Source: Apostichopus japonicus (Eukaryota > Echinodermata > Holothuroidea > Aspidochirotida > Stichopodidae). Taken from it: a stretch of 64,000 nucleotides of DNA. Positions 52,901 to 55,446 of the stretch are shown here, in pieces. The stretch is from positions 11,340,499 to 11,404,498 of the forward strand of contig NC_092565.1 of assembly GCF_037975245.1 (NCBI RefSeq). The letters run 5' to 3'. Within the stretch, counting starts at the first letter, position 1; every line of letters starts with the position of its first letter. The notes under the pieces are model-generated. The model was not told where the DNA came from. It ran no database searches and was given only the letters and a program-made list of their open reading frames with translations. The position numbers and the translations under genes were made by a program.

Positions 52901-55446
52901 CATTGATACCATACGTCCTGGTGGATTTGCTCCCCACAACCATAACATTGTCACTGAGCTTGAATGATGAGCTAATCAAGCTGTCTGTGGAGAACGGACA
53001 GGACTCCAGGCGAGTGCCGTCCCATGTAAAGATATCTCCGTCCAATGCTGGTAGTATCTTCTTTTCCCCATCCAAAAACTGCAAAAGTTAACCAAAAATT
53101 GTCATTAATTAATAACTCGGAAGTGTCTTACTTTTTCCTCACTTATATGTTAATTAGAAACTTGAAATTAATGTTTTACACCAATACAAACCCACAACAG
53201 AGATTGCTCCCTCTACCCACCCCCCTCCTCCCTCCCACCTCAAGTGTAAGCCAAAAATGTTGAAAATTGAATATATTAATTTTCAAAGAAGATGAAAATG
53301 GCAGCTGTGATCCCTACAGTTAAACCCAATATTGTTGTCATCCATCACCGATTAATTTATATAAATGGCAGTAGAACATCATACCCTCCCTGAAACTGTT
53401 TCCGAAGAATTGTTTCTATAATTGATGTTAACAAACTTTCCATGGTGTAAAAACTGTGCACACTGCTTGCCATTTAAATGTATGCATATTTATTCACATT
53501 GGCAACCAACAATATTAGTGTTTGCATATGTATGGACATTCATGATGAAGAATCTACATGAAAATTTAATTGGTAAATTGAATGAATTAGTCTCATAACC
53601 TAGAGCTGATCCTTACATTTTGACTGCTTAAGGATGATGAGAGCAGAGGGCCAGTTCCTGCATCTAGATCCCAGAGTTTACTACCGCTGCCATGTAGATC
53701 GAGTGCTGTAACAGCTCCGTTCATGGAACTCACCACAACCAATGGTCTGAATATGAAGGGAAAAAGTAACACCAAACATCCTTGCTATGAAATTACATTT
53801 TTGATGAACATTCAATTCTCTGATGATCATTATATTTAAAATTGATGATTGGAAAATAAATTCCTAAAAGCTCTATCCATCTTACATTAGTTGCTGCATA
53901 AATGCAGCATATTGAAAGTCTGTTAAGCTAACCTCACATTTTACATTAACTGGGGTTATATATTTGTGAAAAAAATATTCTGTAACTATCAAAATTTCAT
54001 ATGTAAACATACAACAAAGTTGCATATAACTATGCACAACACACATACTGTAGCACTGTGAATGTGAATGATTATAAATGTATAGGCTACTGCCAGGCAG
54101 GATGTTTACTTCATAGCTAATTTGGAAAGAAACATGCAGCTTTATTTTTAATTAGTAACTGTTAGTGTTACCATGGAGCTATAAACTGTTTATAGCTCCA
54201 TGGTGTTACAAACCATAGCTCTCAGAAAATGCATTACCCGCTTACACTACACAGCAACTGTATGCATCACGGTACCAAGTACTGTACAATGGTAGGCGAT
54301 ATAGGCAAGTAGTTACTACAGGCCGTTGACTTAGGCTATGTCTTACAGTTATTATAGTTGTGTAAAAGTAAGTCTGACGTTTCGAGGGACAAACTAAAAC
54401 AAATGATAGCGAATGACCGAATGACAATTGACTTTGTACAGGGTTAATTATCATTTGCGAATGACAGCGAATGACAACGAATGACAACGAAGGACAACGA
54501 AGGACAGTGTTGAGTGGAGAGCAGAGTAAATGCGGTTATTGGTTTTCTGCGCAAAAATGATTTTAGGAAAATCGCATGTTACGTGGTTGCAGGGTTTTGG
54601 TGTAATTTACGGATAGAAACCACAGTGAGAATGCGCTTGAGTGCTGTGCTTTTTACCTCTGTACATTTATATAGAAAGATAACTGAAGCCGTTTCAAGAT
54701 TATAGTATTGTTAGTTCCTAACAATTAATATCGGAAAAATGACGTTAAATTTACTTTTTAAAATCAGACTTACAAATTTTGCTTACTATAAGGTGCGTTT
54801 TTATCTTGTCTGTACTTTACCAGATCTAGATACCCACGAAGTCTGAACTGTGATATCCGGTTGAAGCAAATGTCTGTGCTGTCATTACTGTCATTCGTTT
54901 TAGTCAACGCAATTTTTTAGTGTGTACAACATATTGTCATTCGTTATGTGTAACGCAATTGTCATTCGTTTTAGTAACACCCCGTTTCGATCCTACTGTA
55001 GCAGGATCTTCTTCAGAGGCTAAATGCCTCTGAAGAAGTATTTTAGTACTTATAGTTGGATATATATTAGTATAAACTTAGCCTAGGCCTTACTTAGACT
55101 TAGTTCTCTTAGTAATCATCAGTTACAACGTGAATAGCCGAAACGGGTTTTTTCTTTACCTTTTTCTTTGTATGCTAGCACACCGGTATGAAGCCACTGA
55201 TGAAGGCATATCTTTCGGTTTCTCCGGACGAATCTGTTTTCCAACTCCAAGACCAGCAGATCTGGAAGGGGATTTAGGCCTATCATTGGTGTTTACATTG
55301 CCGGGGACTCCCCGGTTGCCCAGGTTGTTTTCATTTGACTCACCCCTCGCTTTCAGGTTTACAGCGGTGGTCCCTTGAGGGACAGTAAACGTTAACAATA
55401 CAATGTAAAAGGAAATCCTCACAACTGCATCAAGAAGATGTCCCAT
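40806..55446 (-). CDS. EIF2AK3: PERK, eIF2alpha kinase 3, complete (16 exons, 1056 residues)
   Basis: Type I ER-membrane kinase of the unfolded-protein response; it phosphorylates eIF2alpha and lowers translation. Sixteen exons join in frame to 3171 nt (human about 1116 residues). Signal peptide 1-28. The luminal stress-sensing domain has beta-propeller-like strands ([53 protein letters not shown]). Transmembrane helix about 508-526 ([18 protein letters not shown]). The kinase domain starts near 566: glycine loop [12 protein letters not shown] lysine K598 in [17 protein letters not shown], a long acidic insert with [13 protein letters not shown] (D893), VGDFG (D911), activation-loop T943 in [10 protein letters not shown], and [20 protein letters not shown]. 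All catalytic residues are present, so it should be active. Introns hold a SINE of each of two families and several hAT-like elements. ATG has A at -3 and G at +4. Confidence 0.96.
41384..41449 (-). CDS. EIF2AK3: PERK exon 15: kinase C-lobe
   Basis: 66 nt, residues 986-1007. [20 protein letters not shown] then TE, matching the LKFPPLF region of vertebrate PERK. Acceptor ATCCACAG, donor GAG|GTAAGG. Confidence 0.93.
42057..42158 (-). CDS. EIF2AK3: PERK exon 14: kinase C-lobe
   Basis: 102 nt, residues 952-985. [20 protein letters not shown] then [14 protein letters not shown]. Acceptor TTATTTCAG; donor TCT|GTAAGT. Confidence 0.95.
42220..42243. repeat. CA microsatellite
   Basis: About 12 repeats, some 60 bp upstream of the PERK exon 14 acceptor. 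Confidence 0.9.
42485..43207. mobile_element. hAT-like element, CAGGGATGTAAGT ends, 723 bp
   Basis: 13-bp exact terminal repeats CAGGGATGTAAGT. The 9-bp sequence TATACTATT is repeated exactly at both flanks (42476-42484, 43208-43216). Inside, a block of about 61 bp is repeated with a 73-bp period (42552-42612, 42625-42685), and the right terminus itself is present twice (43117-43207, about 44-bp unit with GGATTTCCGTAAAAATACGG). It lies in the PERK intron between exons 13 and 14. Confidence 0.88.
43316..43483 (-). CDS. EIF2AK3: PERK exon 13: DFG and activation loop
   Basis: 168 nt, residues 896-951. [37 protein letters not shown]. Phase 0 both ends. Confidence 0.96.
44039..44198 (+). mobile_element. 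tRNA-derived SINE, family 2
   Basis: A 72-base tRNA-like head (44039-44110) has A box TAGCCTAGTGG and B box GGTTCGAATCC. Six of seven acceptor pairs form (GCGTCCA with TGGAGGC). The anticodon stem TCCGC/GCGGA is perfect, with loop GTACAGA. The T stem has two mismatches, and an unrelated AT-rich tail ends in an AT microsatellite. It is read as a SINE rather than a working tRNA gene. Antisense in the PERK intron between exons 12 and 13. Confidence 0.65.
44358..44390. repeat. AT microsatellite beside PERK exon 12 donor
   Basis: About 16 AT repeats starting 12 bases inside the intron on the transcript strand. Another AT tract lies at 44163-44197 and a short one near 43833-43848. Confidence 0.9.
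44403..45123 (-). CDS. EIF2AK3: PERK exon 12: kinase insert and catalytic loop
   Basis: 721 nt, residues 655-895. Long low-complexity acidic insert containing [11 protein letters not shown], then [20 protein letters not shown] and MIHRDLK. Donor AAG|GTGAGT; an AT microsatellite begins 12 bases into the intron. Confidence 0.95.
45769..45918 (-). CDS. EIF2AK3: PERK exon 11: kinase alpha-C helix region
   Basis: 150 nt, residues 605-654. [20 protein letters not shown] carries the helix C glutamate, followed by [20 protein letters not shown]. Confidence 0.95.
46709..46831 (-). CDS. EIF2AK3: PERK exon 10: kinase glycine loop and ATP lysine
   Basis: 123 nt, residues 564-604. [20 protein letters not shown] then [21 protein letters not shown]598 is the ATP-binding lysine. 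Confidence 0.96.
47386..47562 (-). CDS. EIF2AK3: PERK exon 9: transmembrane helix and linker
   Basis: 177 nt, residues 505-563. [20 protein letters not shown] membrane segment, then an acidic cytosolic linker and GFTSRY. Acceptor CTCTGCAG, donor AG|GTATTA. Confidence 0.92.
48556..48718 (-). CDS. EIF2AK3: PERK exon 8: juxtamembrane luminal part
   Basis: 163 nt, residues 451-504. [12 protein letters not shown], basic SHRSKRRKP, then LGLSVWNW leading to the membrane. Acceptor TTTTTTTCAG, donor TG|GTAAGT. Confidence 0.9.
49175..49450 (-). CDS. EIF2AK3: PERK exon 7: luminal domain
   Basis: 276 nt, residues 359-450. [31 protein letters not shown] (the conserved WKP...SRTP region) and SQYPFG. Donor G|GTAATT is weaker than the others. 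Confidence 0.9.
50269..50413 (-). CDS. EIF2AK3: PERK exon 6: luminal domain
   Basis: 145 nt, residues 311-358. [20 protein letters not shown] to PIMPSFIG. The acceptor TTTCTCAG has a hAT-like element only about 30 nt upstream. Donor G|GTGAGT (phase 1). Confidence 0.92.
50446..51218. mobile_element. hAT-like element in PERK intron 5, 773 bp
   Basis: Ends CATAGGCG and inverse. The 8-bp duplication ATTAGTAC is exact (50438-50445, 51219-51226). It contains a perfect hairpin (50818-50875), a two-copy tandem block with 87-bp period (51011-51087, 51098-51174) and a long C run at its right end. The left edge is about 30 nt from the exon 6 acceptor. Related termini occur at 29461-30008. Confidence 0.9.
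50818..50875. repeat. Perfect hairpin, 22-bp arms, 14-nt loop
   Basis: The arm at 50818-50839 (containing TAGGCATTCATCGGTTAT) is the exact inverse of 50854-50875. Lies inside the transposon at 50446-51218. Confidence 0.92.
51731..51920 (-). CDS. EIF2AK3: PERK exon 5: luminal domain
   Basis: 190 nt, residues 247-310. [18 protein letters not shown] to HREILWSHE; acceptor TTTCCTCAG, donor GAG|GTAACA. Confidence 0.93.
52022..52273 (-). mobile_element. tRNA-derived SINE, family 1, copy C (full length)
   Basis: On the minus strand it begins AGGAGTGTTAGCTCAATG with A box. B box GGTTCGAGTC and a possible acceptor stem GGAGTG/CACTCC follow. The body and three 3' hairpins match copy A, and the tail is ATAC-like. 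Located in the PERK intron between exons 4 and 5, in sense orientation. Confidence 0.88.
52299..52429 (-). CDS. EIF2AK3: PERK exon 4: luminal domain
   Basis: 131 nt, residues 204-246. [14 protein letters not shown] to [13 protein letters not shown]. Donor AA|GTTAGT (phase 2). A sense-orientation SINE begins about 25 bp past this donor. Confidence 0.92.
52887..53078 (-). CDS. EIF2AK3: PERK exon 3: luminal domain
   Basis: 192 nt, residues 140-203. [34 protein letters not shown]. Acceptor TTTTGCAG, donor AAG|GTAAGC, phase 0 both ends. Confidence 0.94.
53617..53746 (-). CDS. EIF2AK3: PERK exon 2: luminal domain
   Basis: 130 nt, to residue 139. [18 protein letters not shown] and [18 protein letters not shown] match the conserved first propeller strands. 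Acceptor ATATTCAG, donor AAT|GTAAGG. Confidence 0.93.
54165..54209. mobile_element. 31-bp palindrome with exact 7-bp direct repeats
   Basis: The direct repeat GTGTTAC (54165-54171, 54203-54209) flanks CATGGAGCTATAAAC, a single T, and the exact inverse arm. A second, slightly deleted copy lies at 3704-3742 with a different 7-bp repeat. In PERK intron 1. Confidence 0.65.
54386..54982. mobile_element. Unclassified DNA element with GGG ends, 597 bp
   Basis: Left GGGACAAACTAAAAC and right inverse GGGTGTTACTAAAAC share ACTAAAAC followed by AATGAC-rich blocks in inverted orientation. The 8-bp CGTTTCGA flanks both sides exactly (54378-54385, 54983-54990). AATGACAACG-type subrepeats lie near the left end. 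In PERK intron 1. Confidence 0.75.
55008..55038. repeat. Perfect hairpin, 13-bp arms, 5-nt loop
   Basis: CTTCTTCAGAGGC, loop TAAAT, exact inverse. It directly follows a GATCCT/AGGATC pair at 54989-55008; together they look like part of an older repeat into which the element at 54386 inserted. Confidence 0.85.
55160..55446 (-). CDS. EIF2AK3: PERK exon 1: signal peptide, luminal start
   Basis: 287 nt, residues 1-95 plus two bases. Hydrophobic [14 protein letters not shown], then a polar linker. Donor AAAAAG|GTAAAG (phase 2) was chosen over the weaker CG|GTGTGC at 55183, which would also keep frame and shorten the protein by about eight residues. Confidence 0.85.

Follow-up and report, generated by a model that had tools for sequence, protein, structure and literature searches.

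The products of P-element excision are known from laboratory flies. The Drosophila P transposase is described as leaving 17-nt 3' single-stranded tails (PMC7776569, PMC10983969), and the repair products reported from Drosophila (PMC2895639), again with 17-nt tails, include near-palindromes between two target copies, for example acccagacCATGATGAAATAAC(AT)GTTATTTCATCATGacccagac, one favoured junction accounting for 14 isolates among the 68 junctions sequenced. Two further members of the P superfamily are described with a 7-bp target site duplication (TSD): 1360 (PMC3276498) and Galileo, whose duplication has a GT...AC core (GTATTAC or GTANTAC; PMC4168063). Here we report on two short palindromes in a 64,000-nt stretch of the Apostichopus japonicus genome (the window; contig NC_092565.1, positions 11,340,499 to 11,404,498, forward strand) and on their counterparts elsewhere in the assembly. 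We are confident that these palindromes were left behind by the excision of P-superfamily DNA transposons and are footprints of end joining.

The first palindrome of the window, a 31-bp excision scar at 54172-54202, is composed of two arms of CATGGAGCTATAAACAGA, 15 nt on the left (54172-54186) and 17 nt on the right (54186-54202), which overlap by 1 nt; the TSD copies, GTGTTAC, are located at 54165-54171 and 54203-54209. The second scar, at 3711-3735, is a blunt join between the 7 nt that remain of the left arm (3711-3717) and an 18-nt right arm (3718-3735), and is flanked by GTCAGAC at 3704-3710 and 3736-3742. Both belong to the same family of terminal inverted repeats (TIRs), family A, and no strand was assigned to scars or TSDs. 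Direct reading confirmed the sequences and positions given for both palindromes in a preliminary description of the window, together with the window scan described below for the left GTGTTAC copy and, for the second scar, an exact 18-mer match on the minus strand starting at 3735.

Two matches to the pattern CATGGAG-N0-25-CTCCATG were present in the window, whereas 100 shuffles gave 0.03 matches on average. A scan for any unit of 12-60 bp with 6-bp inverted ends, located between exact direct repeats of 7-9 bp and excluding one- and two-letter repeats, yielded these two palindromes only, and nothing in three shuffles of 3-base blocks. No third copy was found when the window was scanned for degenerate scars.

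The same pattern was searched in the whole assembly (671.6 Mb, 35 contigs), where it occurred at 1,799 places, compared with 49 for the reversed control pattern. Fifty of these 1,799 places were sampled; as two overlapped, they gave 49 sites, all within approximately the first 19 Mb of contig C1; with the two window sites these amount to 51, and removal of four flank duplicates left 47 non-redundant sites. The 7-bp repeat was exact at 30 sites, matched at six of seven positions at 14 and at three or fewer at 3, both TSD copies being kept (at least 6/7) at 44 of the 47. Mispaired flanks shared an exact 7-mer in only 4 of 2,162 cases, and an 8-bp repeat was found at none of the 47 sites. Among the three sites with poor repeats, L013 shows the repeat GTGTATG when the printed sequence is read as a larger scar with an insert, and L044 and L049 look like chance matches to the pattern.

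Apart from segmental duplicates (the four removed from the 51), the flanks were unrelated between sites. The target is itself a palindrome, TTNGTNNNACNAA, with the TSD, GTNNNAC, at its centre (38 sites). Since the repeats are kept, the flanks are unrelated and the target is palindromic, these results support the insertion of a mobile element at many unrelated sites, with duplication of 7 bp of a GTNNNAC-like sequence. This agrees with the preliminary description, which had named many copies in the assembly with matching 7-bp flanks as supporting evidence; neither a general lack of repeats nor conserved flanks, named there as contrary evidence, was seen. Its 7-bp parsing was correct, and the preferred target proved wider than GTNNNAC and not strict. 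The alternative that it had considered, a 35-bp palindrome with 3-bp duplications, is ruled out by exact 7-bp repeats without a GT...AC frame at L006 (GATCAGC), L020 (GTACATG) and L033 (ATTGGAT).

The two TSD copies differ at 14 of 308 positions, and some scars are common to segmental duplicates (e.g. L034/L035 and L108/L109), which indicates that the scars are heritable and, as a group, not recent.

Two families of arms, A (CATGGAGCTATAAACAGA) and B (CATGGAGGTAAAAACAGA), each up to 18 nt long, cover 44 of the 47 sites. In every case one arm, trimmed to some length, is joined to the other arm trimmed differently, so that the interiors are many different junctions of two trimmed ends and not copies of one sequence. 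Scar lengths ranged from 14 to 38 bp among the sites read, and the longest arm measured 18 nt at 13 of the 44 sites. At 25 of the 44 junctions the arms overlap by 1-4 nt, 5 are blunt and 14 contain extra or different bases; minor families, for example CATGGAGCTATTACCG, may account for some of these. Microhomology was therefore present in 25 of 30 insert-free joins, compared with the 36% (family A) or 24% (family B) expected from random joins of arms 7-18 nt long (binomial p 1.4e-7 at 36%). Such microhomology, together with small and templated inserts and unequal trimming, is a signature of end joining.

Templated inserts were found at L018 and L054, which carry extra partial copies of the terminal repeat. 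The complex scar of L054 (C1:3293275-3294464), between GTGTATG repeats, contains the family B end in several incomplete copies, both direct and inverted. It resembles the templated inserts that are credited in flies to polymerase theta. At L005, L023, L040 and L041 the scars have other arms (CATGGAGTTAGAA..., CATGGAGCTATT...), whose sequences suggest further minor families of the 7-bp group. At L055 (C2:23816000-23819500) two scars lie 1 kb apart, near 23817227 and 23818269, with their target repeats swapped: CTGTAAC is found at one scar and its reverse complement at the other, the second repeat pair matching poorly, an arrangement that inversion of the DNA between two excision breaks might leave.

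In order to locate where the arms stop, the 17-mer CATGGAGSTAWAAACAG was searched in the assembly: it occurred 1,248 times and its reversed control never. From a sample of 100 places, 82 lay in loci that were read; these represented 81 distinct strings and, after collapsing similar left flanks, 75 places. Position 18 was A at 60 of the 75, and from position 19 on no base prevailed, the highest count being 31 of 60 at position 20, which comes from the CTCC of the other arm. The remnants are thus bounded at about 18 nt in this sample. Only two of the 75 places run into a shared element interior (L083 and L074, the latter duplicated as L101).

An exact 7-mer recurred within 50 bp at 42 of the 75 places, against 29 of 5,550 in the mispaired control. 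At 11 of these 42 only 0-3 nt of the second end are left. Three of the 11 (L059 and two in L073) were set aside on account of a point difference in the longer arm; the other eight (L070, L071, L074, L075, L081, L085, L094 and L103) are one-armed scars with both target repeats kept. Since a unit lacking one of its ends could not have inserted as such, these sites speak against the bare palindrome as the inserting unit.

The following course of events would produce such scars. A transposon with ends CATGGAG(C/G)TA(T/A)AAACAGA would have inserted into TTNGTNNNACNAA-like sites, duplicating the central 7 bp, as the flanks show. Later a transposase, presumably of the P type, would have made cuts with a long stagger at both ends, one strand being cut about 18 nt within the element (a position suggested by the arm stops, with a presumptive strand polarity), leaving each chromosomal end with a single-stranded terminal-repeat tail. 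The two tails, carrying the same repeat in opposite orientation, would then be trimmed. They would pair through microhomologies of 1-4 nt, or else be joined blunt or with inserted bases, and fill-in would give a near-palindrome flanked by both target copies, the product seen at the sites read. The repair enzymes would be those suggested by Drosophila, where the same types of product follow P excision. The resulting scars would be immobile and subject to mutational decay.

The closest parallel is the set of P footprints of Drosophila melanogaster (Chan, Yu and McVey 2010, PMC2895639), in which, as that account presents them, trimmed TIRs are likewise joined by microhomology, bluntly or with templated inserts, both TSD copies are kept and some products retain almost no repeat. 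Those footprints are laboratory events at one locus in repair mutants, with 17-nt tails, an 8-bp TSD and the TIR CATGATGAAATAACATA; the present scars, in contrast, are natural, heritable and genome-wide, with arms to about 18 nt, a 7-bp TSD and other TIRs. Galileo and 1360/Hoppel share with them the 7-bp TSD, a palindromic target extending past the TSD and the GT...AC core (PMC4168063, PMC3276498). The outer target motif differs, being AANGT/ACNTT in Galileo and ANAGT/ACTNT in the P group but TTNGT/ACNAA here, and the accounts compared contain no footprint catalogue for either element (PMC4168063, PMC3276498). The P-related miniature inverted-repeat transposable elements (MITEs) of Anopheles gambiae are described as non-autonomous relatives with P ends, in that respect like the present families; unlike the palindromes, which are not such units, they have interiors and 8-bp TSDs and are presented as mobile families (PMC1562414).

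An unexcised relative of 1,401 bp was found at C2:4606270-4607670 (loci L083 and L155), with an exact GTTGGAC TSD on both sides and the ends CATGGAGCTATAAACAGA on the left and CATGGAGGTATAAACTTA on the right. Its reading frame of 157 aa gave weak but repeated alignments with the C-terminal part of P transposases. A profile of 778 positions was built from 120 P transposases; P0121, a protein 75% identical to the 157-aa frame, matched this profile over positions 600-763 (30 bits, single-target E 7.6e-12), and a Pfam search of P0121 returned only a chance-level hit to an unrelated family. Judging from these alignments, we take the 1,401-bp element as an internally deleted P-superfamily element with a C-terminal transposase remnant.

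Loci L074 and L101 have the same interior. L074 (C2:10957300-10963300) was rejected as a parent copy: in place of a right end it has 416 bp that repeat its own flank in inverted orientation. The two flank copies (1574-1989 and 3243-3658, 99.76% identity) both end exactly at the TSD, beside the truncated element, and possibly represent fold-back repair of an excision break.

The P-transposase GTP-binding domain, PF21788, gave 40 matches in the genome. The element at C17:17638763-17646761 (7,999 bp) has a perfect 34-bp inverted repeat, an exact 8-bp TSD (ACCGAGAA) and a 764-aa frame in which all four P domains are present, among them the helix-turn-helix, RNase H and GTP-binding domains, and which matches the solved P transposase 6p5a (E 3.3e-26). 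Perfect inverted repeats and an 8-bp TSD were also found for the elements at C13:12995314-13003493 (8,180 bp, with a PF21788 match) and C21:1208331-1215346 (7,016 bp, whose frame shows two of the four domains). The inverted ends of these three elements begin with CA, as do those of the scars, and the C17 repeat, CATAGAGCTTAATAATAA, resembles CATGGAGCTATAAACAGA at its start; they differ from the scars in their perfect repeats of 31-34 bp, of other sequence, and in their exact 8-bp TSDs. For one of the resident P transposases, the closest protein matched came from Holothuria leucospilota (96% identity over 68% of the query), as would suit a sea cucumber host, although transposons are able to pass from one species to another. 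The terminal ends of the P-transposase loci on C22 and C19 were sought and not found. At C16:5.18-6.08 Mb there is a cluster of P-transposase copies that are degenerate, most of them with stop codons in the matched stretch; those compared are mostly about 78-95% identical. Two identical 3,282-bp stretches with a long P-like frame (L137 and L138, C19:10286303-10289584 and C19:10312332-10315613) lie 26 kb apart.

Several observations weigh against the excision of P-superfamily elements as the origin of the scars. Thirty-one of the 75 places with the 17-mer are left without resolution by an exact repeat; some of them show a repeat with one mismatch, and the rest may have lost their right side. 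L062 and L072, which have no recognised repeat, match the parent for 21 and 20 nt, so that the 18-nt edge is imperfect; because these two loci blur the edge, our confidence in excision was lowered, very slightly. Where a family B arm is joined to ACCTCCATG, the other arm may have supplied the A of position 18, but this A is present in one-armed sites as well (e.g. L071, L085 and L103). By its choice, the 17-mer set is unable to reveal shorter arms. The 1,401-bp element is the sole unexcised copy seen that has both ends, and on the right it shows 3 differences from the 18-mer. The similarity of its 157-aa frame to P proteins is weak (best tblastn E 3.4e-5, for one element and 120 queries; profile score 4.8 bits, against at most 4.3 in 1,000 shuffles), and the frame matched no Pfam family. 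No complete transposase gene with CATGGAGCTATAAACAGA-type ends was found among the P-transposase loci examined. The C17, C13 and C21 elements were rejected as autonomous parents of the scars, as they have 8-bp TSDs and no CATGGAG ends, and for the latter reason we infer that the scars were made by a different, 7-bp branch.

The possibility that the 25-31 bp palindrome is itself an ultra-short MITE, mobilised in trans by a P-type transposase with a 7-bp TSD, would account for the two good ends, the exact TSDs and the many copies, and some junctions do recur at several unrelated sites. Such recurrence is, however, expected from favoured microhomology joins, for which Drosophila provides the precedent, and a MITE has one internal sequence and two intact ends and moves as a unit, whereas the interiors here vary from site to site, with unequal trimming, microhomology and inserts, and the eight one-armed sites have lost nearly all of one end with both target repeats kept. 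This makes an ultra-short MITE highly improbable. What stands of the mobile element in the preliminary description is that something mobile inserted at many unrelated sites; that the palindrome is itself the mobile unit is not supported, and the hairpin intermediate suggested there is not needed. Equally improbable, in our judgement, is that a single break inside each transposon fused its two ends without excision by transposase. Two ends joined at microhomology within an intact TSD would result from this as well, and L062 and L072 do keep 2-3 nt past position 18; yet random deletions would end at all depths, mostly beyond 18 nt, while only two of the 75 places enter the shared interior, and the one-armed scars would further require deletions ending at the target boundary. 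Palindromes can also serve as protein sites, but the likelihood that the present ones are conserved for regulation or structure, or belong to a larger repeat, is negligible: the flanks are unrelated save for the segmental duplicates, the TSD varies from site to site, and the 7-mers match their own partners far more often than mispaired ones, which already refutes it.

An origin from some other superfamily, one that merely resembles P and likewise cuts deep within its ends, would fit with arms that stop at 18 and not 17 nt, with a TSD of 7 and not 8 bp, and with the lack of a complete transposase gene found with these ends. On the other hand, 7-bp TSDs are documented for two P-superfamily elements, one of which, Galileo, has the GT...AC core, and the unexcised 1,401-bp parent appears to carry a P-transposase C-terminal remnant. 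We know of no other superfamily with a stagger this long, and regard this explanation as very unlikely. Within the excision of P-superfamily elements, it is conceivable, if quite unlikely, that efficient and perhaps host-controlled germline excision by a P-type transposase with an 18-nt stagger removed nearly all copies of both families, as one-way clearance and not cut-and-paste turnover. The sole direct support for this is the scarcity of unexcised copies in the sample; if it were true, scars would vastly outnumber elements.

Elsewhere in the window, short tandem units like CGAATGACAA occur at 54440-54500, downstream of the scar at 54172-54202. A reading frame at 44340-45131 on the minus strand resembles a PERK-type eIF2-alpha kinase, to judge from its motifs, and ends in a run that can be read as a TA-dinucleotide repeat.

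No report of such an archive of excision scars was found in a search of open-licence PubMed Central papers. Products of this kind are already known; the setting is new, and so are the parameters: a 7-bp target, a bound near 18 nt and a genome-wide distribution. Extrapolating from the 1,799 places and the sample read, this one assembly probably holds more than 1,000 natural heritable excision events. To our knowledge, cutting by the 7-bp branch has not been measured, and from the scars one can read, in the genome itself, the stagger with which an unstudied transposase cuts. They also call for caution, in that short palindromes with perfect TSDs may be scars and not MITEs, and they constitute a natural germline record of the end-joining choices of an invertebrate.

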